This document shows positions 10,810 through 60,674 of a stretch of 64,000 nucleotides of DNA, one piece after another (position 1 is the stretch's first letter; each line of letters begins with the position of its first letter). The notes under the pieces were generated by a model. That model did not search any database. It was given only the letters and a program-made list of their open reading frames with translations, and was not told where the DNA came from. Location of the stretch: IMG/VR virus record IMGVR_UViG_3300033156_000424, positions 1 to 64,000 of that record. One strand, written 5' to 3'. The stretch comes from a virus. The translations under genes and the position numbers were made by a program.

Positions 10810-10883
10810 GCGACCATCGTTCAACGGAAGGACAATGTACTGCCAGTACATTAACGTGGGTTCGAATCCCTCTGGTCGCACCA
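10810..10883 (+). tRNA. tRNA-Gly (anticodon GCC), CCA encoded
   Basis: Acceptor arms GCGACCA (10810-10816) and TGGTCGC (10873-10879) pair perfectly. The D stem is GTTC/GGAC, the anticodon stem ATGTA/TACAT, with loop CTGCCAG and anticodon GCC at 10842-10844. The T loop is TTCGAAT. The T stem GTGGG/CCCTC has one T-T mismatch. Discriminator A is followed by an encoded CCA. It lies directly between a membrane peptide gene and a zinc-finger gene, so it is probably excised from the operon transcript. No integrase is nearby, so an attachment-site role is not supported. Confidence 0.93.
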
Positions 10884-11093: not shown

Positions 11094-11110
11094 AAAACAA
11101 AGTGATTAAA

Positions 11111-12151
11111 ATGAAGAAATATCCAAAAATACCTCATAAAACGAGGAAAGATGTAAATTTTGTTCCTTTTGAGCCAGAACATGATGTTGTGATTCAAGAG
11201 AAGGTAGATGGAGAAAATTTTAGAATACAAATAGAAAAGGAAGAAATTACCGATATGAGTTCTATGTTTAAGTTCTCATATGGAAGCAGACGAGTTGATA
11301 ACATAAATGCAAATGGTGGATTTGGAAAAATAATAGAATATTTCGAATCAGAACCGTTCATGCCAACTCATATTAGTAATTTATTTGATATAGCAACAAG
11401 AGTATATAGAACATATGTACAAAAAATAACAGTTTTTGGAGAGTTTCTTGGAAGTCATAAACACAAGAAAATACCGTATGATAGAGCACCGAAGAACAAT
11501 CTTGCTGTGTTTGATATTATGATATCTAATGATAAGGAATATGCATTTATTCATCCAGCAAGTAATCTATTTACTCTAATTTGTGATACACTTAAAGTTG
11601 ATAAAGTTCCTATACTTTATATGGGGAAAAGTGGATGTGGGATGCAAGATTTCATTAAACTTAATGAGAGTTTTTTTGATAAGATGAGTTATCTTGGAGG
11701 ACATAAAATAGAAGGAACTGTTGCAAAAAACTATGAGAACTTTATAGACGATGAGAAAGGAGTAAAGATGGTAGATATATCTTTTGGTGGAGATGAACTT
11801 GGTCTTCCGATGATTAAGTTTGTTCAAGAACACCTTAAAGAACATGCACATGTTGAAAATATAGTTACCGATACTATTGAAGGTATAGTTAATTTCATAG
11901 CTGATAGATGTATTACTGAAGGAAGGGTATATAAAGCACTAACAAAGATAGAATTTGATGAGCAAAAGAAATGTGATAGAACAGATACACCAAAGATTAT
12001 AAAAGAAGTTATGAATGATGTGCTTATAGAAGAAGATGAACATATACGAAAAATGCTTTATAAAGAATTTAAAGATAAATTTGGAAGAAAAGCGAATAAA
12101 ATAGTAAAGATATATTTTAAATTATTAGAAAAAGGATTAGAAGAAAGGTGA
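11111..12151 (+). CDS. RNA ligase (nucleotidyltransferase superfamily)
   Basis: 346 residues. The KxDG motif I is at K31-V-D-G34 (EKVDGENF), the lysine that takes AMP. Further motifs follow: GSRR, a motif III-like FGEFLG, IEGTVAK (motif IV), and MVDISF/MIKF near the motif V region. The C-terminal helical domain is not the OB fold of DNA ligases. The T4 Rnl2-like RNA ligase group is the best family fit; these seal nicked RNA and can repair tRNAs cut by host anticodon nucleases. Neighbouring a viral tRNA fits that role (inference). ATG 11111 follows GTGATTAAA; the GTG at 11102 is the ribosome binding site. Confidence 0.85.
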   Translation: MKKYPKIPHKTRKDVNFVPFEPEHDVVIQEKVDGENFRIQIEKEEITDMSSMFKFSYGSRRVDNINANGGFGKIIEYFESEPFMPTHISNLFDIATRVYRTYVQKITVFGEFLGSHKHKKIPYDRAPKNNLAVFDIMISNDKEYAFIHPASNLFTLICDTLKVDKVPILYMGKSGCGMQDFIKLNESFFDKMSYLGGHKIEGTVAKNYENFIDDEKGVKMVDISFGGDELGLPMIKFVQEHLKEHAHVENIVTDTIEGIVNFIADRCITEGRVYKALTKIEFDEQKKCDRTDTPKIIKEVMNDVLIEEDEHIRKMLYKEFKDKFGRKANKIVKIYFKLLEKGLEER

Positions 12152-13102: not shown

Positions 13103-13657
13103 ATGGGACAGCAGATATACAATAGAAAAAATAACGAAAGAGAACCAAATGATTTTTATGTAACTCCTCCAGAGACTACACGAGCACTTATGGAAAGAGA
13201 AAAGTTTGATGGACTTATTTGGGAATGTGCTTGTGGTACTGGGGAGATGGCTGAAGTTATAAAAGAATATGATTGTATGGTTTTTTCGAGTGATTTGATA
13301 GATAGAGGATATGGTCGTGGTGGAGTTGATTTTTTACAACATCCAGATGAGGATGAGGTAGAGAATATAATTACAAATCCACCATATAAACATGCATTTG
13401 CATTTGTTAAAAAAGCCAAGAAAATTGCTACAAAAAAGATAGCAATGCTCTTAAAAATAACATTTCTTGAAGGTATATCAAGATATGAGATGTTTCAAGA
13501 TACAGACTTTCCTCTAAAAATAGTATATGTTTTTTGTAGAAGACAAAAAGTAGCTAAAGAAGGTATGGAATTAAAAAATGCTGGTATGATTGCTTATGCA
13601 TGGTTTGTGTGGGATAAAGAATATAAAGGAAAACCAATAATTGAGTGGATACCATAA
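13103..13657 (+). CDS. DNA adenine-type methyltransferase
   Basis: 184 residues. An AdoMet-binding motif I, CACGTGEMAE, is at about 43-51, a motif II-like SSDL at about 62, and the catalytic NPPY at 92-95, typical of N6-adenine DNA methyltransferases. It is short and has no obvious separate target-recognition domain. The first of three DNA methyltransferases in about 4 kb, with no nuclease partner seen. Likely protects viral DNA from host restriction (inference). Start ATG 13103; the GTG at 13094 belongs to the ribosome binding site. Confidence 0.82.
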   Translation: MGQQIYNRKNNEREPNDFYVTPPETTRALMEREKFDGLIWECACGTGEMAEVIKEYDCMVFSSDLIDRGYGRGGVDFLQHPDEDEVENIITNPPYKHAFAFVKKAKKIATKKIAMLLKITFLEGISRYEMFQDTDFPLKIVYVFCRRQKVAKEGMELKNAGMIAYAWFVWDKEYKGKPIIEWIP

Positions 13658-13706
13658 CACTTCAACAGAAATGTTTATATATATGATATTTTAAACGTTT
13701 GAAGTG
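13658..13706 (+). promoter_or_regulatory. TATA element framed by an 8-bp inverted repeat
   Basis: GAAATGTTTATAT at 13668-13680 is the promoter. CACTTCAA (13658-13665) and its exact reverse complement TTGAAGTG (13699-13706) flank it on both sides, with the right arm at the expected transcription start. This arrangement resembles an operator for a dimeric repressor. Confidence 0.6.
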
Positions 13707-13712
13707 ATGTCA

Positions 13713-13904
13713 ATGACTGAATTTAGATATTATAATAAACCGGTATGTCCTAAATGTGGAAAGAAGATGATAGATGTGAGAATGTTCTTCTCTGAATGGA
13801 AGGAAAGAAATCTTTCTGTGAGGTTTTATTGTGATAATTGTGATATTCATCGATGGGTTGTTATAAAAAAAGCAAATTTGACATTTGGTGATATATATGA
13901 ATAG
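13713..13904 (+). CDS. 63-aa zinc-ribbon protein
   Basis: Start at ATG 13713, about 10 nt from the predicted transcription start, with GTGAT as ribosome binding site. CPKCGK at about 12 and CDNC near 43 form a zinc ribbon in a beta-rich context. Own promoter. Confidence 0.7.
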   Translation: MTEFRYYNKPVCPKCGKKMIDVRMFFSEWKERNLSVRFYCDNCDIHRWVVIKKANLTFGDIYE

Positions 13905-14139
13905 AAACACAAAAAAAGAGAATGAAGAAATATTAAACGCAATGACAGAAGAAGAAATAATGATGATGAGAAATAGATTTATCAATTTTTACTATGATGA
14001 AAAATTAAGACTTAAAGAGACCCTTTTTTTTATATCATTATTTAACAAACAGTTAAAAGAGTTTAAAAAGAAGGAAAACAAAATAAACAGATTTAAGAAA
14101 TTGGAAGAATTCATAGACAGAACATACCAAAAAGTTTAA
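13897..14139 (+). CDS. Small helical protein
   Basis: 80 residues, ATG after GGTGATATAT and overlapping the previous stop. Helical and highly charged, with a Lys-rich C-terminus. No family recognised. Confidence 0.6.
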   Translation: MNRNTKKENEEILNAMTEEEIMMMRNRFINFYYDEKLRLKETLFFISLFNKQLKEFKKKENKINRFKKLEEFIDRTYQKV

Positions 14140-14170
14140 AAATGAGTGAGAGATTACTATCGTGATTAAA

Positions 14171-14377
14171 ATGAGTTCAACTGATATTAATAATTATAGA
14201 GCATGTGATGATTGTAAAGGTCTTTTTTCTACTTTGAATCTAATAGAAATAGAGACAAAGAATAAGATAATAAATAAACTTATTTGTGATGAGTGTTTAA
14301 AAATAAGAAACAAAAGAGCATTTTTAAAGAGACAGAGAAAGGAAAGATTTAACACAATCATTGAAAAAGTGTCATAA
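14171..14377 (+). CDS. 68-aa zinc-finger protein
   Basis: ATG after CGTGATTAAA. CDDCKG at about 13 and CDEC near 40 form a treble-clef-like finger, with a basic C-terminal helix (KRAFLKRQRKER). Possible nucleic-acid binding. Confidence 0.65.
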   Translation: MSSTDINNYRACDDCKGLFSTLNLIEIETKNKIINKLICDECLKIRNKRAFLKRQRKERFNTIIEKVS

Positions 14378-14393
14378 AAAATTTACGCGTAGA

Positions 14394-14446
14394 AAAATTG
14401 GATTTTTTATTTTTTCAGAATAGATGAAAGTAAAAAATTCAATTTT
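14394..14446 (+). terminator. Long AT-rich hairpin between operons
   Basis: Arms 14394-14416 and 14426-14446 are nearly complementary over about 21 nt around a 9-nt loop, with T-runs inside the left arm. It sits in the 100-bp gap after the 14171-14377 gene. Could be a terminator or processing signal for the upstream operon. Confidence 0.45.
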
Positions 14447-14479
14447 GAAGTGTTTAGATGAAAAAAAGAGGAGAAAGAA

Positions 14480-14671
14480 ATGAATTTTTTAACAACAAAG
14501 ATACTGCGAAAGATTAAATGTAATTTTTGTACCAAAAAGACTATAAAAAAAGATAAGGGGAAGTTTGTCTGTACGAATTGTGGGATGATGTACGAGGAAT
14601 GGGAGTTATGGGACATGGTTGATGAGGAAAACAAGTACAATGGGATATGGAAATATGAATATAAAAAATAA
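14480..14671 (+). CDS. 63-aa zinc-ribbon protein
   Basis: ATG after AGAGGAGAAAGAA. CNFC at about 15 and CTNCGM near 33 give a TFIIS-like ribbon, followed by an acidic, Trp-rich tail. Role unknown. Confidence 0.7.
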   Translation: MNFLTTKILRKIKCNFCTKKTIKKDKGKFVCTNCGMMYEEWELWDMVDEENKYNGIWKYEYKK

Positions 14672-14816
14672 AATAGAGATAGAGATGAGATTTTCTGAAG
14701 ATGTATATGATTGTTTTGAGTATTTAAAGGATAGATTTCCAGAACTTGCTCGAAGATTTATTTCATCATATAAGAAAAACAACAATACATGGATTTGTGA
14801 GTTTAAGACGGATTGA
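14655..14816 (+). CDS. Small unknown protein
   Basis: 53 residues if started at ATG 14655; an ATG at 14685 gives 43. Overlaps the preceding gene. Short alpha/beta domain with RFPELARRFISSY. Function unknown. Confidence 0.5.
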   Translation: MNIKNKIEIEMRFSEDVYDCFEYLKDRFPELARRFISSYKKNNNTWICEFKTD

Positions 14817-14820
14817 TATC

Positions 14821-15012
14821 ATGACAAGTAGTTGTAGTAGATGTGATAAACCGTTTCAAAGAGAACCAATTAAATGTGCTGTACATAAGGGATATATTTG
14901 TATGGATTGTGTTGGTTATGTTGATAGAGAAGGACATTATTATTGTTGGGATTGTATTGAGATAGGACAAAAATATGATGAATTTAAGGAGAATGAAATA
15001 AATGTATTATAA
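14821..15012 (+). CDS. 63-aa double zinc-finger protein
   Basis: ATG after GGATTGATATC. CSRC, CAVH, CMDC and CWDC in 50 residues give eight ligands in four pairs, a RING or B-box-like cross-brace. Overlaps the start of the following methyltransferase by 11 nt. Confidence 0.7.
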   Translation: MTSSCSRCDKPFQREPIKCAVHKGYICMDCVGYVDREGHYYCWDCIEIGQKYDEFKENEINVL

Positions 15013-15796
15013 AAGCACAAACAATAGAGGTCAAAGCATAGAACTTTTTCATGTTGATTGTATAGAATTAATGAATAGCTGGGTAAGTGAATGTGAAACA
15101 TGTAATGTTGGTATGTATGATGTTATTTTTGTTGACCCACCGTTTGGTATAAATTTTAGAAATAATGTTGGATATTACAATAGAGATAATACAAATGTTA
15201 TAGAATATGAAGATATAAATCCAATAGAATATAATTATTTTACAAGAGAGTGGATTAACCTTGTGTCGTTTTTATTGAAAGATACTGGAGTGTTATGGGT
15301 TGTATCTGGATGGTCTAATATTGATATTATTAGGTCATGGGCAAGATATTATAAACTGTTCCTTATAAATGAAGTTATATGGCATTTTCCTTTTGGTGTT
15401 TTTCATAAAGGGAAAAAATTTATATCAAGTCATTATACTTTATCATTATTTGTTAAGAATAAAAAGAAATATTTTTTTAATTCTGAAGCATTTTTCCCAT
15501 TTAAGAAAGGTAAAGGAAATAATAAAAAAAATTATGAAGATAGACAAGATGTGTGGATAATACCAAGAGAATATGTAAAGGGAAAAAAGAAAACAGCGAC
15601 AGTTTTACCATATAAACTTATTTATAAAATGTTAAAATATACTTCTAAAAGTGGAGACATTTTATTAGACCCAATGATGGGGAGTGGAAGAACATTAGAA
15701 GTAGCATATAAGTTGGGATTGAATGTTGTTGGGATAGAAAAAAATAAAAAAACGTTTGATTTTGCATATGATAACCTTAAACATCTTTTTAATTAA
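15002..15796 (+). CDS. DNA methyltransferase (DPPF, beta-class order)
   Basis: 264 residues. Catalytic DPPFG at 45-49 precedes the AdoMet motif LDPMMGSGRT near 222-231, so the motif order is beta-type, as in N6-adenine/N4-cytosine methyltransferases of the N6_N4_Mtase family. The central region (about 90-200) probably contains the target-recognition part. Lysine-rich insert around 160-180. Likely anti-restriction or epigenetic function for the virus. Confidence 0.85.
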   Translation: MYYKSTNNRGQSIELFHVDCIELMNSWVSECETCNVGMYDVIFVDPPFGINFRNNVGYYNRDNTNVIEYEDINPIEYNYFTREWINLVSFLLKDTGVLWVVSGWSNIDIIRSWARYYKLFLINEVIWHFPFGVFHKGKKFISSHYTLSLFVKNKKKYFFNSEAFFPFKKGKGNNKKNYEDRQDVWIIPREYVKGKKKTATVLPYKLIYKMLKYTSKSGDILLDPMMGSGRTLEVAYKLGLNVVGIEKNKKTFDFAYDNLKHLFN

Positions 15797-15812
15797 TTAA
15801 AAAAACTTAAAA

Positions 15813-15826
15813 GAAAACATTTATAA
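15813..15826 (+). promoter_or_regulatory. Promoter of the 15872 gene
   Basis: GAAAACATTTATAA; predicted transcription start about 22 nt before ATG 15872. Confidence 0.65.
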
Positions 15827-15871
15827 GTAACAAAAATAATAACAATATAAGAATTATGGAAGTATGATAGA

Positions 15872-16231
15872 ATGGAAGATGAATTTGTTGATATAAGCGA
15901 GACTATTGGAATAAAAGAAGACAATGAAACCATAACTATAAGATATAGAGGAAAACAAGCCATAGAAGCTGTTGCTATGTTGAGAAGTATATATTTGACC
16001 AAGTATCATAAAGAACCAGAGTTTATTATTGTTGATGATGTAACATATCTTATGATTAAAGCAAATGTATTTAATCATAATGAAACATTCTTCTCACCAG
16101 ATGATGTGTTAGACGACATTCTTGGAATGAAGATAATAAATAAGAATAATTGTATATCATTTACACAAAATGATATAACATTTATTGATAATAGTGATGG
16201 TGGAGAAGAAGATGCCGAGATTGGTTCATAA
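15872..16231 (+). CDS. Unknown acidic protein upstream of a methyltransferase
   Basis: 119 residues, acidic, alpha/beta; FFSPDDVLDDILGMKI in the C-terminal half. Its end overlaps the following methyltransferase gene by 20 nt, so the two are translationally coupled. No family recognised. Confidence 0.65.
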   Translation: MEDEFVDISETIGIKEDNETITIRYRGKQAIEAVAMLRSIYLTKYHKEPEFIIVDDVTYLMIKANVFNHNETFFSPDDVLDDILGMKIINKNNCISFTQNDITFIDNSDGGEEDAEIGS

Positions 16232-17030
16232 AGAAGGAAATATTATTATATATGGAGAAGATTCAAGAGTAATGTGTGAAGTTAATGATGAGTATGTAGA
16301 TTCAATAATAACGTCACCTCCATATAATGTTAAGAAAAAATATATTGGTAAGAGAGAATATCATGATAATTTAAATGATTTTGAATATTTTCATATGTTA
16401 TATGATATTTTTAAAGAATGTTATCGAGTGTTAAAGAAGGAAGGGGTGTTTTTTTTAAATGTTGGGTTTAACAGAGAAGATTTGAAAAAGGCATGGAAGG
16501 TTCTTGAAGTCGCTGAACAAGCTGGATTTATTTATTTTCAACCAATAATATGGATGAAATCATTTATGGGGAAAGGTCATTATAGCCCAAGTAAGAACCC
16601 AAAGCATTTTTATCTTAATTATGAATATATATTTATTTTAGTAAAAGATGAAAAGTTTAAATTAAATGCTAAAAAAATAGGTATTCCTTATACTGATAAG
16701 TCAAATCTTAAAAGATATAACCATTCTGTTGATTTAAGAGATGCTGGTAATGTATGGTTTATACCATATGAAACAAGAAATAAAGATAGTAGGATTTTAT
16801 ATCCATCTATTTATCCATTTAAACTTGTACAAAACTGTATAGATGTATTAGATAAAGATAATGGGATTATTTTAGACCCATTTTGTGGAGTCGGCACATC
16901 ATTGATAGTAGCAGAGGATAATGGGTTTGATGCGATAGGATATGATGTCACATTTAATATAGAAGGATTCAAACAAAGAAAAAAAGGATATGAGAAGTGG
17001 AAAAATAATGAGAAAAACGATGAGAGATAG
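16212..17030 (+). CDS. DNA methyltransferase (TSPPY, N4-cytosine type)
   Basis: 272 residues from ATG 16212 (a longer start at 16185 lies inside the preceding gene). Catalytic TSPPYNV at 34-40 precedes AdoMet motif LDPFCGVGTS at about 221-230. TSPPY is typical of N4-cytosine methyltransferases. The middle contains a conserved-looking PSKNPKHFYLNYEYI stretch. Third DNA methyltransferase in the region. Confidence 0.85.
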   Translation: MPRLVHKEGNIIIYGEDSRVMCEVNDEYVDSIITSPPYNVKKKYIGKREYHDNLNDFEYFHMLYDIFKECYRVLKKEGVFFLNVGFNREDLKKAWKVLEVAEQAGFIYFQPIIWMKSFMGKGHYSPSKNPKHFYLNYEYIFILVKDEKFKLNAKKIGIPYTDKSNLKRYNHSVDLRDAGNVWFIPYETRNKDSRILYPSIYPFKLVQNCIDVLDKDNGIILDPFCGVGTSLIVAEDNGFDAIGYDVTFNIEGFKQRKKGYEKWKNNEKNDER

Positions 17031-17238
17031 AGTTATAGAAACTATTAATAATCTTCCAGATAGATTCTCATTTAAAGATATTTTAGTTTCTATTAATATA
17101 GATAAGAATGATAACAGAAGGAGAACAATATATAAAATTCTTGGAGAAATGATGATTGTAGGTAAGATACAAAAAGCAAAAGTTATACTTGATGACCAAA
17201 AAAAGAGTTTGTATGAGAAGGTAAAAGAGGGGTGTTAA
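17008..17238 (+). CDS. Possible winged-helix DNA-binding protein
   Basis: 76 residues from ATG 17008. RVIETINNLPDRFSFKDIL followed by RRRTIYKILGEMMIVGKIQKAKVIL has the helix-helix-wing rhythm of small winged-helix proteins. Overlaps the methyltransferase end, so it could regulate that cassette. Assignment by pattern only. Confidence 0.5.
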   Translation: MRKTMRDRVIETINNLPDRFSFKDILVSINIDKNDNRRRTIYKILGEMMIVGKIQKAKVILDDQKKSLYEKVKEGC

Positions 17239-17242
17239 AGAG

Positions 17243-17713
17243 ATGAGAATTTTAAGTGGTAAGAGAGCAGAGAGATATCAATATATACAACACATAGCAG
17301 ATAAAAAACAAATATGTAATGATGGGATAATTTTAACATTTGGTGCGGTATTTGATGTATTAGATATACCAATGGAAAAAAACATAGAAAATATACGATA
17401 TAAACATGTACAACCAATGGTAAAAAATGGAAAAGCTGTATTGATGACAAATGGAACATATCTATTTGGGATAAATGAAAAATTCTCATTAAAGATACAT
17501 GATGGATTTTTAAAAACAGATAAAAAAGTATTTGGATATATTGTTCCTTTAGATAGTTGGATAAAAAGAGGTCATTCAGTTGAAAACAAAATAATTAACT
17601 GGGGGTTCGAAGGATATGATACTGTGTTAGTATCATATAATTATTCTGGGGAATTGTTGTTAAATATTCCTTTTGCAAAAGTTATGTTTATTGAATACGA
17701 AACTTTAGAATAG
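17243..17713 (+). CDS. Unknown protein
   Basis: 156 residues. Mixed alpha/beta with a Lys-rich N-terminus; no motif recognised. Last gene before the replication-module promoter. Confidence 0.65.
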   Translation: MRILSGKRAERYQYIQHIADKKQICNDGIILTFGAVFDVLDIPMEKNIENIRYKHVQPMVKNGKAVLMTNGTYLFGINEKFSLKIHDGFLKTDKKVFGYIVPLDSWIKRGHSVENKIINWGFEGYDTVLVSYNYSGELLLNIPFAKVMFIEYETLE

Positions 17714-17730: not shown

Positions 17731-17745
17731 GGAAACATTTATAAG
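17731..17745 (+). promoter_or_regulatory. Promoter of the replication module
   Basis: GGAAACATTTATAAG, one of the best matches to the window consensus. Transcription is expected near 17768, giving a leader of about 40 nt before ATG 17808. A nine-codon frame in that leader (17775-17804) is probably chance. Confidence 0.65.
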
Positions 17746-19607: not shown

Positions 19608-19783
19608 GTGACAAAGAGCATGATAAAAAAAGTCTTAATATATTTGTAGCTAAATTACTAAAAGAAATAAGAATAACATCAGAAGTAAGCTATATGACAA
19701 TGGATATTCAAACATCATTAAGACAAATAGCCAACTGTTTAACTTTTGAAATATTGAGAGATGAGTTGATGAAAGATGAGTGA
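19604..19783 (+). CDS. 59-aa helical protein
   Basis: ATGA overlap with the preceding gene and an 8-nt overlap with the following ATPase gene. Helical with a Ser/Thr-rich centre. No motif. Confidence 0.55.
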   Translation: MSDKEHDKKSLNIFVAKLLKEIRITSEVSYMTMDIQTSLRQIANCLTFEILRDELMKDE

Positions 19784-20630
19784 AGTACAATTTAAGTCAT
19801 CTGAACATATTATAACAAGAGAATTTGCATTGAAGAATTTTTTCTTTAAAGTTCTTGTATATGGAGAGACAGATATTGGAAAGACATATTTAGGTGTATC
19901 TGCATTTCTTATGGACAGAGAAAAAGAAACATATATGTTCATATTTCCAACTGATACAATTGAGAATGTTGAGGAAGTTTTAAAACAACTCTTAACGAAA
20001 GACCAATTAATGAGAGTTAATGCACCAAGAGATAATGAGGGGAGAATGGTATCATTAAAAACATATAAAGATATTATAAAAAGAATGGTTGAACTAACAA
20101 AATGGACAAAAGAAAATGAGGATAAGAGATTAGTTATACTTGTAGATAATGCAGATGGTATAGAAGAAATATATCTCAATTCTCATTTTGATACGCTAAA
20201 GTATGATACTCCGAGACCAACAGATTGGGGTAAAGCAAGAACAAGAATGATTAGAGAGTTTGTTATTCCATTAATGGATATGAAGGCTGATGTAATTTTT
20301 GTGAGTAGTGAAGAAGATATTTATCCAGAGAGTGATGACCCCTATTTGAAACCAACTGGCATTACAGATTGTACTCTTGGTGGTGGGAGTAAGAAAAGTA
20401 AAGATAAGTTTAAAAGAAAATTCAATCTTATATTTAATTTACAAAAGAGATTTGTAACAGACCCAGAAAGATTGTGTGTTGTAAATGTCATTAAAAAGAT
20501 AAAGTTAGCAGATGACCCAAAGAAATGGATGAAAACAATAGAATTGTATGGTAATGATTGTAATGACATGAGAAGGATATATAAGGAAATATTATATAGA
20601 CAAAAGGTAAGTAGAGGAGAGACAAAATAA
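19776..20630 (+). CDS. P-loop ATPase, Sak4/AAA_24-like
   Basis: 284 residues. Walker A GETDIGKT at 30-37 and Walker B RLVILVDNAD at about 118-127 in a RecA-like order. Phage Sak4-type recombinases and the AAA_24 family have this size and motif spacing and help load strands or assist recombination with the single-stranded DNA-binding protein. Its place after the possible DNA-binding protein at 17808 fits. The C-terminal part is basic with GGGSKKSKDKFKRK, possibly DNA-contacting. Three structured RNA units follow immediately. Confidence 0.72.
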   Translation: MSEVQFKSSEHIITREFALKNFFFKVLVYGETDIGKTYLGVSAFLMDREKETYMFIFPTDTIENVEEVLKQLLTKDQLMRVNAPRDNEGRMVSLKTYKDIIKRMVELTKWTKENEDKRLVILVDNADGIEEIYLNSHFDTLKYDTPRPTDWGKARTRMIREFVIPLMDMKADVIFVSSEEDIYPESDDPYLKPTGITDCTLGGGSKKSKDKFKRKFNLIFNLQKRFVTDPERLCVVNVIKKIKLADDPKKWMKTIELYGNDCNDMRRIYKEILYRQKVSRGETK

Positions 20631-20631
20631 T

Positions 20632-20722
20632 AAAGATACGATAAACTCTTAATATAGAAACCCTAGTACTTCTTCGGAAGATGGGAAGTCTAACGCGTTA
20701 GCAAAGAGGTCGCTATATCTTT
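20632..20722 (+). ncRNA. Tandem structured RNA, unit 1
   Basis: AAAGATA (20632-20638) pairs with TATCTTT (20716-20722); CGA pairs with TCG; CUCUU pairs with AAGAG. The asymmetric internal loop UAAA against G and the 3-nt bulge CTA match the other units. The apical region can form CTTC-TTCG-GAAG and CTAAC-GC-GTTAG hairpins. Seen in the sequence; RNA expression is inferred. Confidence 0.6.
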
Positions 20723-20727
20723 ATTAT

Positions 20728-20806
20728 AAGATGCGATAAACCTCATTATAAAAAAATAGGAGCTTGAAATCGCGGCATTTTTTATAATGGGGGTCGCAAC
20801 ATCTTT
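20728..20806 (+). ncRNA. Tandem structured RNA, unit 2
   Basis: AAGATG pairs with CATCTT where units 1 and 3 have AAGATA/TATCTT, a compensatory change. CGA/TCG, the UAAA internal loop and the bulge CAA are conserved. CCTCATTATAAAAAAAT pairs with ATTTTTTATAATGGGG over about 16 bp. The apical loop contains GCTTGAAATCG. Confidence 0.6.
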
Positions 20807-20811
20807 ACTGT

Positions 20812-20899
20812 AAGATACGACAAACCTCATGCGATTGAAAAGATAGTAAGCTTGAAACCGACAGTCGGAGTTCTTTCAGAATGAGGGTCGCTATATCTT
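20812..20899 (+). ncRNA. Tandem structured RNA, unit 3
   Basis: AAGATA/TATCTT, CGA/TCG with CAAA internal loop, and CCTCAT/ATGAGG. TGAAAAGA pairs with TCTTTCA higher up and CCGA-CAG-TCGG forms an apical hairpin. GCTTGAAACCG is shared with unit 2. The unit ends 2 nt before the GGTGAG ribosome binding site of the next gene, so folding could affect its translation. Confidence 0.6.
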
Positions 20900-20910
20900 G
20901 TGGTGAGCAT

Positions 20911-21276
20911 ATGATTAACTTTGAACGGCTTTCTTCAATAGAAAAGAAAAGTGTATTGAAGAAGATTAAAGAAACTGGAAATTATAATAATATAACATAT
21001 AAAGGAAAGAAGATTATATTTGGAGAAACAGTAGTGCTTGGATTTGTTTGTACAAATAATAAATGTAATGCTTTTCATAAATTTAATATTCATCCATCAT
21101 CATTGAGATATGTTGTTGATAGACATCCATGCAGTAGATGTAATTCAGATAGTTATCTTAAATTTATTATGGAAGATAAGTTTGAAAAGAACATTGGAAG
21201 ATATCTTAATAAAGGTGGAACATTATTAGAATATTTTATAGATGAGAAAACAGAAGAAACTATGGATGAATATTGA
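20911..21276 (+). CDS. Cys-rich unknown protein downstream of the RNA units
   Basis: 121 residues from ATG 20911 (after GGTGAGCAT). The longer frame from 20881 would read through hairpin unit 3 and is rejected. CTNNKC near 52 and CSRC near 84 form a probable zinc site, with a GKKIIFGETVVLGFVC beta region before it. It may be controlled by, or bind, the upstream RNAs (inference from position). Confidence 0.65.
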   Translation: MINFERLSSIEKKSVLKKIKETGNYNNITYKGKKIIFGETVVLGFVCTNNKCNAFHKFNIHPSSLRYVVDRHPCSRCNSDSYLKFIMEDKFEKNIGRYLNKGGTLLEYFIDEKTEETMDEY

Positions 21277-21728: not shown

Positions 21729-22574
21729 TTAGAGTAATCTTCTTTTTTTATTACTTATTTTTCTTCTCCTTAATTTAGGATTATTTATATTATTATGAAC
21801 AAAATTGTTTAAATCTCCAGTTAGACCAGAAAATTCGAAAAGATAGTCTTCTTTTGGGAGAGTGTTTTTTGATTTGATTTTCTTGTAATAGAGTGGAACT
21901 AAAACAACTAAAAGTAGAACAATACCAACTAATGTAGCAACTGATAATGGTGCGTTGTTTATAATATAAGAGATAAAAACAGATGGATTTTGAACGAATA
22001 CCTTTATAACATTTAATAATATTGAAATGATGTTATATGTTATAATACCAATAATCCCATATTTCTTTGCACCGTTGAATAAGAGTTTGATTGCATTTTG
22101 TACTGCAATACGTAACTGCTCAACTTGGGCTCGTGTATTAACATGTTCCATACGTATGTCTGCTATCTCTCTTTCAATGAGAAACATTCGTTGAGAGGTG
22201 ACACCATTTGAAATCTGTTTCACATACTTTGATACGGCTTCAATAACATTAATAACTTTAAATGGTTTCTCAACTACTTCCATAGCACCAGCTTGAAGCA
22301 TTTCTTCTCTTCCTTTTGGGCTATAACCAGTAATACCTATAATCTTTGCTAAATTGTCAATCTGTAATATTTGTCGTATTGCTTCAGCACCACTCATATC
22401 TGGCATGACATAGTCCATAACAACAATATCTGGTCTATATTTATCATATAATTTAACAGCCTCCTTCCCAGTTCTTGCTTCCATTACTTCAAAATAATCA
22501 CCAAGTGTGGGAGTGAGAATGTTAAGGACATTGTCATTATCATCTGCTATAAGTATGAGTTGTGTGCATTGCAT
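21729..22574 (-). CDS. Response-regulator receiver domain fused to membrane anchor
   Basis: 281 residues. The receiver domain spans about 5-120 with all core residues: acidic pair D11-D12, phosphoacceptor D54 (VVMDYVMPDMSG), T82 and K103 (VEKPF). A coiled coil (about 125-170) follows, then two hydrophobic segments (about 180-202 and 205-240), and a Lys/Arg-rich tail. Receivers accept phosphate from histidine kinases; a viral one could divert or report host two-component signalling at the membrane (inference). No kinase is in the window. The start is ATG 22574, 27 nt from a strong TATA element, so the mRNA is probably leaderless; an upstream frame extension to 22607 lies inside the promoter. 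Confidence 0.85.
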   Translation of the reverse strand: MQCTQLILIADDNDNVLNILTPTLGDYFEVMEARTGKEAVKLYDKYRPDIVVMDYVMPDMSGAEAIRQILQIDNLAKIIGITGYSPKGREEMLQAGAMEVVEKPFKVINVIEAVSKYVKQISNGVTSQRMFLIEREIADIRMEHVNTRAQVEQLRIAVQNAIKLLFNGAKKYGIIGIITYNIISILLNVIKVFVQNPSVFISYIINNAPLSVATLVGIVLLLVVLVPLYYKKIKSKNTLPKEDYLFEFSGLTGDLNNFVHNNINNPKLRRRKISNKKRRLL

Positions 22575-22594
22575 AAACAAAATATATTTGCAGT

Positions 22595-22610
22595 ATTTTA
22601 TAAACATTTC
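22595..22610 (-). promoter_or_regulatory. Promoter of the receiver-domain gene
   Basis: GAAATGTTTATAAAAT on the minus strand, centred about 27 nt from ATG 22574. Confidence 0.7.
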
Positions 22611-58310: not shown

Positions 58311-60674
58311 TTAAACCCCATCATCTGGATAATCATCCCATAAAACTGTTAATTGTATAGTATATGTAGTTTTATCTACATTTTTATCTGGGAAATTATT
58401 TAATCTTAATTGATATTCATTAAAATTGTTTGGAGATTTCGCAGATATTACACTAAAATCATCATCATAATAATAACCAAAAACATGTCCATTTTTATCT
58501 ATTGTCATAACGATAGGAGACCAATCAACAGCTGGGTCTGCACCATCAAGTTCTGATGCTTTCACACATTTTATTTCAACTATACCGTTATCTAATATAA
58601 ATGTTTCTAACTCTTTATCTAATGTTACAACAACTTCTGTATTTGTAAATAATGATAACCCTATTTTAACATCTTTTGCATCCCAGATATCTGCTAAATT
58701 TAAAAAGTTATTATAAACCCTAAACGTTGCAACAGAACTTGTTTCAGTTGCAGCTATGTTTCCAAAAGATAATTTTGTTAATTCATCATATGGTGATTGG
58801 TAATCTCTTATTGTTATTATTGGCAAGTTTTTCACCTCAGCCTCATTGAGTATATACATTTCAAAATGTCTATCAGTAATTGTCTGTGTTTGAATATTTA
58901 ACTCAAAATCTCTATCAAATATAGATAAAACATCTATACCTAATTCGAAATCTCTATCTATAATGTTCTCTATTTGAATTCCTATATAAAAGTTTCTATC
59001 AAATATTGTTTCAATTTGAATATTAAGTTCGAAATCTCTGTCTGTTATAGATAGAGCATCTATACCTAATTCGAAATCTCTATCTACAACTGATTCTAAT
59101 TGTATATTAAGTTCGAACTCCCTATCAGTTATAAATTCAAGTTGTATTGTTAGTTCAAAATCTCTATCTATGATTGCCTCTATTTGTACATTTAATTCAA
59201 AGTCTCTATCAACTATTGTTTCAGTTGCAGCCAGTGATATATTTAACTCAAAGTCTCTATCTGTAATAGATAATAATTGAACATTTAATTCAAAATCCCT
59301 ATCTATAATAGTTTCAAACTCTATACCTAATTCAAAATCTCTGTCTATAATTTCTTCAAGTTGAATAACCAACTCAAAATCTCTATCAACAATTGTTTCA
59401 ACTTGAATGTTTAATTCAAAATCTCTATCTATTATTGTTTCTGTAGCACTTAATGAAACATTTAATTCAAAATCTCTATCTGTTATTGTTTCTAATTGTA
59501 CGTTTAGTTCAAAATCTCTGTCTGTGATTGACTCAAATTCTATGCCAAGTTCAAAGTCTCTATCTATTATTGTCTCAAGTTGTATGTTAAGTTCAAAATC
59601 TCTATCAACAATTGTTTCAAATTCTATACCTAATTCGAAATCTCTATCTATAATTGTTTCAAGTTGAACAGTTAGTTCAAAATCTCTGTCTGTAATTGTC
59701 TGTATCTGTATATTTAACTCAAAGTCTCTGTCTGTAATAGTTTCAATTTGAATATTAAGTTCGAAATCTCTGTCTGTAATTGTTTGTATTTGAATGTTTA
59801 GTTCGAAGTCTCTATCAACAATAGTTTCAGTTTGTCCAACAACATTTAACTCAAAATCTCTGTCAAAAATAGTTACAGTTTGAACATTTAATTCAAAATC
59901 TCTATCAACAATAGTTAAAGCATCTATTCCTAACTCAAAATCCCTATCAACTATTGTTTCTATTTGTATATTAAGTTCGAAATCCCTATCAATGATTGCC
60001 TCAATCTGTATATTTAATTCAAAATCTCTATCTACAATTGTTTCAAACTCAACGCCGAGTTCAAAATCTCTATCTATTATTGTTTCAAGTTGAATTGTTA
60101 ATTCAAAATCTCTATCTGTAATTGTTTCTATTTGTATATTAAGTTCGAAATCCCTATCAGTTATTGTCTCTGTTTGTCCAGCTGCTGTTGTTATAGTAGC
60201 TGTGTAAGCTCCCAAAGCGACAGAGTTTGTTACATCATAAACTTGTAGTTCATATTCTTGGTTATCTTGAGCCCCAGAGCCAAAACCCAAAGCCCATTGT
60301 ATCTCACAATATAATCCAGCTCCTACTTTATTTGGTAGGCAAGAGTTATCTCCCTCATTTTCTATACTTTCATCATTTGTTTGACATCCACCACTTGAAC
60401 CTACTGGTATAGTTCCATCAACAAGAACCGTTCCAGTTCCCCAGCAGATTTCCGTATCTGCCCCAACATCAGCAAATGTCCCTCCAGCTCTTCTCCATTG
60501 TAATTTGAATGTCGATTGAGAACCAGAATGAGCTGTATTATCTTGAACCCAAGAAGCATAAATAAATTCGGCTGTTTTATTCCATCCAGTAACTGAAGTA
60601 TCACAAACAGCTTGCCAAGTTCTACTTGAATCAGCTATACGACTATTGTTCGTTGATGGTTTAACAAATCCCAT
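58311..60674 (-). CDS. Giant 14-residue-repeat virion protein
   Basis: 787 residues. Residues 1-168 form a Trp/Cys-rich beta domain with WQAVCDTSVTGW and several Cys (possible disulfides). Residues about 169-612 are 31 tandem copies of I-x-D-R-D-F-E-L-N-I-Q-x-E-T, three of them 2-3 residues longer. Residues about 615-787 are a separate beta domain with a DDY-rich end. The repeat length suits a beta solenoid or fibrous stalk. It lies between capsid and neck genes, so a head fibre or collar whisker is likely. No homologue recognised. Confidence 0.85.
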   Translation of the reverse strand: MGFVKPSTNNSRIADSSRTWQAVCDTSVTGWNKTAEFIYASWVQDNTAHSGSQSTFKLQWRRAGGTFADVGADTEICWGTGTVLVDGTIPVGSSGGCQTNDESIENEGDNSCLPNKVGAGLYCEIQWALGFGSGAQDNQEYELQVYDVTNSVALGAYTATITTAAGQTETITDRDFELNIQIETITDRDFELTIQLETIIDRDFELGVEFETIVDRDFELNIQIEAIIDRDFELNIQIETIVDRDFELGIDALTIVDRDFELNVQTVTIFDRDFELNVVGQTETIVDRDFELNIQIQTITDRDFELNIQIETITDRDFELNIQIQTITDRDFELTVQLETIIDRDFELGIEFETIVDRDFELNIQLETIIDRDFELGIEFESITDRDFELNVQLETITDRDFELNVSLSATETIIDRDFELNIQVETIVDRDFELVIQLEEIIDRDFELGIEFETIIDRDFELNVQLLSITDRDFELNISLAATETIVDRDFELNVQIEAIIDRDFELTIQLEFITDREFELNIQLESVVDRDFELGIDALSITDRDFELNIQIETIFDRNFYIGIQIENIIDRDFELGIDVLSIFDRDFELNIQTQTITDRHFEMYILNEAEVKNLPIITIRDYQSPYDELTKLSFGNIAATETSSVATFRVYNNFLNLADIWDAKDVKIGLSLFTNTEVVVTLDKELETFILDNGIVEIKCVKASELDGADPAVDWSPIVMTIDKNGHVFGYYYDDDFSVISAKSPNNFNEYQLRLNNFPDKNVDKTTYTIQLTVLWDDYPDDGV
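58838..60164 (-). repeat. 31 copies of a 42-bp coding repeat
   Basis: Encodes DRDFEL every 14 residues. Nucleotide sequences of copies vary at third positions while the protein is conserved, which suggests selection on the protein; near-identical neighbours show recent local duplication. Confidence 0.9.

Follow-up and report, generated by a model that had tools for sequence, protein, structure and literature searches.

Three tandem bulge-helix-bulge units, probable introns of the archaeal type, in a leader of an archaeal tailed virus

Three hairpin units between two viral genes

The virus record studied here is 71,120 bp long, and the window analysed covers its bases 1-64000. On its + strand, the gene for a Sak4/AAA-like ATPase (19776-20630) is followed by a gene for a 121-residue protein (20911-21276). 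The leader between them holds three hairpin units, arranged head to tail at 20633-20899 on the same strand as the neighbouring genes. The downstream protein contains two cysteine pairs (CTNNKC and CSRC) that look like a zinc ribbon by eye. It has no family match, and its predicted structure is unusable (pLDDT 49). A possible archaeal TATA box, ATATATAAGG (20577-20586, + strand), lies about 40 nt upstream of the first unit; it is weak, was noticed by inspection only and does not match the stricter pattern that is enriched genome-wide.

Unit 1 (20633-20721, + strand, 89 nt) combines the outer stem AAGATA/TATCTT, the central helix CGAT/GTCG and the inner stem CTCTT/AAGAG, with bulges AAA at 20643-20645 and CTA at 20713-20715. 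Its outer stem can be extended to 12 bp (20627-20727), a form that takes in the stop codon of the ATPase gene. Unit 2 (20728-20805, + strand, 78 nt) has AAGATG/CATCTT outside, CGAT/GTCG in the centre, bulges AAA and CAA, and an inner stem of 15 bp. Unit 3 (20812-20899, + strand, 88 nt) has AAGATA/TATCTT, CGAC/GTCG, bulges AAA and CTA, and the inner stem CCTCAT/ATGAGG, so that its core is entirely Watson-Crick. With G-U pairs included, the outer stem of unit 3 can reach 14 bp (20804-20907) and then takes in GGTGAG (20902-20907), the downstream gene's ribosome-binding site. Two nucleotides separate this site from the end of the unit, just as the original prediction had it. The units are separated by gaps of 6 nt (TATTAT and TACTGT), not by the 5 nt first reported.

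All three units follow one plan, AAGATR - CGAY - AAA - inner stem ... inner stem - GTCG - CWA - YATCTT. What was earlier described as a CGA/TCG stem with a YAAA/G internal loop is better read as a 4-bp helix, CGAY/GUCG, that includes a Y-G pair and is followed by a 3-nt AAA bulge. Pairwise, 27-33 of 38 arm and bulge positions are conserved among the units. Their interiors show no alignment beyond chance, except between units 2 and 3. The stretch GCTTGAAAYCG, noted earlier as the exception to the divergence of the upper stems, is common to units 2 and 3 only.

Bulge-helix-bulge geometry

The strict archaeal bulge-helix-bulge (BHB) motif, hBHBh', consists of a 3-nt bulge on each strand, a 4-bp helix between the bulges, and flanking stems (PMC3978253, PMC4090602, PMC7714728). 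Although the original prediction knew of no RNA family with the plan of these units, that plan is the strict BHB. Judged by sequence, all three units are hBHBh' motifs, the substrate plan of the archaeal tRNA-splicing endonuclease EndA. Their 3-nt bulges lie on opposite strands (AAA on the 5' side; CTA, CAA and CTA on the 3' side of units 1, 2 and 3), each 3' of its central strand. The central helix has 4 bp, as CGAT/GTCG twice, with one U-G pair each, and as CGAC/GTCG once. The flanking helices are all longer than 2 bp, at 6-14 bp for the outer and 5-15 bp for the inner.

The polarity and strand of the units are those of an intron. In units 1 and 2, the U-G pair of the central helix would become A-C if read from the other strand, which identifies the + strand as the RNA strand. 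A scan for the opposite polarity at the locus returned only a mirror image of unit 3, and a BHB of mirror-image polarity is no EndA substrate. When both strands of the window were scanned for BHB motifs, the three units came out on top, together with an alternative structure in which units 2 and 3 pair with each other. As a control, the scanner was run on the archaeal virus HGTV-1, where it recovered the tRNA-Ala intron given in the annotation and classed it as a strict BHB.

The units are not tRNA introns, because no tRNA body surrounds them: ARAGORN and Rfam report only a tRNA-Gly, at 10810-10883. The sequence GGTCGC in the units resembles the acceptor stem of this viral tRNA, a likeness that we judge to be coincidence. 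The tRNA-Gly has a GCC anticodon and an encoded CCA end, and lies shortly upstream of a gene for an Rnl2-type RNA ligase. At both gathering and permissive thresholds, Rfam gave chance matches only, with no riboswitch or aptamer and no C/D or H/ACA family; the match to an ordinary Rfam family that would have spoken against the original prediction did not turn up.

Several comparisons confirm the array. All of the stems named in the original prediction are present. When the whole genome (71,120 bp) was shuffled 200 times with its dinucleotides preserved, no shuffle had two BHB motifs within 120 nt of each other, so the arrangement lies far beyond chance; the units score 21, 20 and 17 (outer plus inner pairs) against a best shuffled score of 18. 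None of 80 distant terminase-bearing viral loci contains a tandem BHB, which occurs at the window's own locus alone. For the leader as a whole, the folding energy is -75.6 kcal/mol, compared with -58.4 +/- 4.7 in dinucleotide shuffles (z -3.7, 0/200). When each unit is folded alone, the result is significant for units 1 and 2 (z -2.6 and -4.5) but not for unit 3 (z -1.1). In the ensemble of the full leader, unit 2 favours a slipped pairing in which the central helix has 6 bp, leaving its strict outer pairs at a probability of 0.01-0.15, and the BHB of unit 3 forms at about 0.55-0.7.

The compensatory changes noted at the outset also hold up. On the ungapped arms, standard pairs fill 47 of 48 cells (97.9%), and five pairs are changed on both sides; sliding the partner strand by 1-3 columns lowers pairing to 57% or less, in a set of three sequences, all from one locus, for which the shuffle control is coarse.

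Host and predicted processing

The host is very probably archaeal, as judged from the genome sequence. BRE/TATA-like boxes of the archaeal type number 21 against 5.8 +/- 2.5 expected, many of them directly upstream of genes, and a second archaeal-box count gave 5 against 0.5 expected; sigma-70-like sites in the genome show no enrichment. Ribosome-binding sites of the form GGTG are enriched about 12-fold. The terminase is closest to that of HGTV-1 and PolB to that of a Halorubrum virus, both of them haloarchaeal viruses, which together with the promoter boxes bears out the earlier assignment to an archaeal virus, although for the helicase and the baseplate protein bacterial phages are as close or closer. 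Promoter boxes and relatives point to an archaeal host as the likely source of EndA. As guides to the host phylum, tRNA similarity and a search of four archaeal phyla with the MCP profile gave weak matches only, and a search for the RNA ligase in the phylum that includes Methanobrevibacter came back empty. A promoter-like box of the archaeal type, AAACATTTATAAG, occurs in two identical copies, at 15815-15827 and 17733-17745, before genes at 15872 and 17808. Two N6/N4 DNA methyltransferase genes (15002-15796 and 16185-17030) lie close together, and the minus strand encodes a CheY-like response regulator (21729-22607; best NCBIfam match CheY_Halo), which is unusual for a tailed virus.

EndA cuts between the second and third nucleotides of each bulge (PMC12397907). 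By this rule, host EndA would cut each unit at AA^A and at CU^A or CA^A, freeing predicted + strand introns of 70 nt (20645-20714), 59 nt (20740-20798) and 69 nt (20824-20892). Host RtcB would then circularise the introns and ligate the exons, giving a spliced leader that folds into three hairpins, each with a loop of 7 nt. EndA is absent from the virus record (among the controls, it gave a signal only in archaea), and so is RtcB, whereas the test archaea carry both; the host would therefore supply the two enzymes. The viral Rnl2-type RNA ligase (11102-12151, + strand) is a candidate partner for RNA joining, but this is a guess and the ligase is less likely in that role than RtcB.

Because each unit has the exact shape that EndA cuts, we think that the three units are probably small introns: tandem, EndA-processed and of the archaeal type, in the leader between the Sak4-like ATPase and Cys-rich genes of an archaeal tailed virus. 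Among the options first offered for the array, three processed small RNAs looks the right one. The arms and bulges are kept while the interiors, apart from those of units 2 and 3, are not, a pattern that favours selection on processing.

What the processing might be for is less certain. Cleavage may split the upstream message from the downstream one. Since the ribosome-binding site is buried when the outer stem of unit 3 forms at full length, cutting without re-joining might also open the downstream gene to translation, leaving the circles as by-products or extra small RNAs. Core bases of this site are predicted to be unpaired at only 0.01-0.03 in the unspliced leader, compared with about 0.96 in the cut 3' fragment. 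The site is predicted to be covered after full splicing as well and is free only when the RNA is cut and left unjoined, so the idea of gene control requires cleavage without ligation. That control of the leader or gene is the main use is a tentative proposal, to which we give clearly less than an even chance.

The excised introns could instead be the product, as three small circles that act on RNA or protein of the host or the virus. This reading shares the EndA step with the preferred one and differs in which product is useful. It would account for interiors that vary in sequence and length within constant arms and for the stretch shared by units 2 and 3, and archaeal EndA products do get circularised (PMC7714728). 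However, the longest complement between the introns and the viral genome is 11-12 nt, the same as for shuffled introns; circles 1 and 3 fold no better than shuffles; and Rfam offers no match, such as a C/D box. We regard small circles as the main product as possible but doubtful. A combined scheme seems to us unlikely: the virus would have recruited the host's tRNA-splicing endonuclease to process a tandem array of small RNAs, in which repeated BHB ends around variable interiors give three different circles and the cut in the last unit frees the ribosome-binding site.

Other readings fare worse. The array might act as a decoy or sponge, either for EndA, in competition with host pre-tRNA and pre-rRNA, or for an anticodon nuclease, through spliced anticodon-like hairpins. 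Three copies of a strict BHB, 7-nt loops in the spliced exons (CGAUAAA, CGAUAAA and CGACAAA) and a virus-encoded RNA ligase would fit. The idea is speculative, though: the loops lack the U33 of a tRNA, and at three copies per message a decoy would demand very high expression, making it quite improbable. We consider it slightly less probable still that the units are an unprocessed tandem aptamer, or a binding site for the following protein, as the original prediction had suggested. Their location would fit, since they end just short of a ribosome-binding site that the folding models bury. Such a role leaves both the diverged interiors and the exact 3-4-3 geometry and polarity of all three units unexplained, and it has no support of its own: what stays constant is the processing element and not a common loop, and GCTTGAAAYCG is shared by two units only. 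Finally, splicing could give the Cys-rich protein a longer N-terminus, since removal of all three introns leaves the frame of the 20911 gene open for 34 codons upstream. This extension contains no ATG, GTG or TTG and does not share the reading frame of the upstream gene, and a dedicated ribosome-binding site stands directly before the ATG at 20911. Without a start codon in the extension, introns in a coding region, of the kind found in cbf5, are very improbable here.

Precedents and relatives

Documented sites of BHB introns are tRNAs, rRNAs, one family of coding mRNAs and one cellular 5' UTR. In the open-licence literature, we found no report of tandem BHB introns, and none of viral BHB introns outside tRNAs. 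HVO_1309 of Haloferax volcanii comes nearest: in this gene, a 46-nt BHB intron in the 5' UTR is excised and circularised and the gene is lower under endA repression (PMC7714728). Like the units described here, it is a small BHB intron in an untranslated leader, but it is single and cellular, whereas the array consists of three tandem homologous copies and is viral. EndA also cuts the BHB processing stems of archaeal 16S/23S pre-rRNA, a polycistronic RNA outside the tRNAs, with circularisation of the released part (PMC7714728); in our case the released parts would be 59-70 nt and are not rRNA. Archaeal tRNA introns, including that of HGTV-1 tRNA-Ala, share the strict hBHBh', the polarity and the 7-nt loop after splicing, but the units lack a tRNA body and their loops lack the anticodon-loop U33. 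The introns in the cbf5 pre-mRNA of Crenarchaeota (PMC2738675) resemble the units as archaeal introns in an mRNA and differ in lying in a coding region, where the array lies in a leader and is triplicate. If our reading is true, viruses employ the splicing endonuclease of their hosts on messages or small RNAs of their own, and the array makes it seem worthwhile to scan the genomes of archaeal viruses for BHB motifs outside tRNAs.

The searches found no homologous locus. The strict pattern of the array has no match in viral contigs or in GTDB genomes, and a relaxed core pattern gave 15 single matches, none with flanking stems. Searches with the downstream protein, the Sak4-like protein, the terminase and the polymerase found no near relatives in viral contigs. 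An MCP search of the same kind of contigs yielded five relatives, none of which covers the array. The longest of these, G001 (46 kb, MCP identity 87%), is collinear with 44.4-71 kb and 1-11.8 kb of the record and lacks the 11.8-44.4 kb stretch that includes the array; outside this stretch, DNA identity in the group is roughly 65-75%. Because G001 bridges the record ends, the genome appears to be circular or circularly permuted, and at 71 kb it is probably close to complete.

Two further features were noticed. A 787-residue protein (58311-60674) has strong internal repeats (58860-60180), and its relatives in G001 and a second contig, G003, are repetitive too. G001 also has a stretch that the window lacks, which encodes adjacent ThiF (E1-like) and JAB-domain proteins (13583-15976 and 16463-17557), perhaps a ubiquitin-like or defence-related module.
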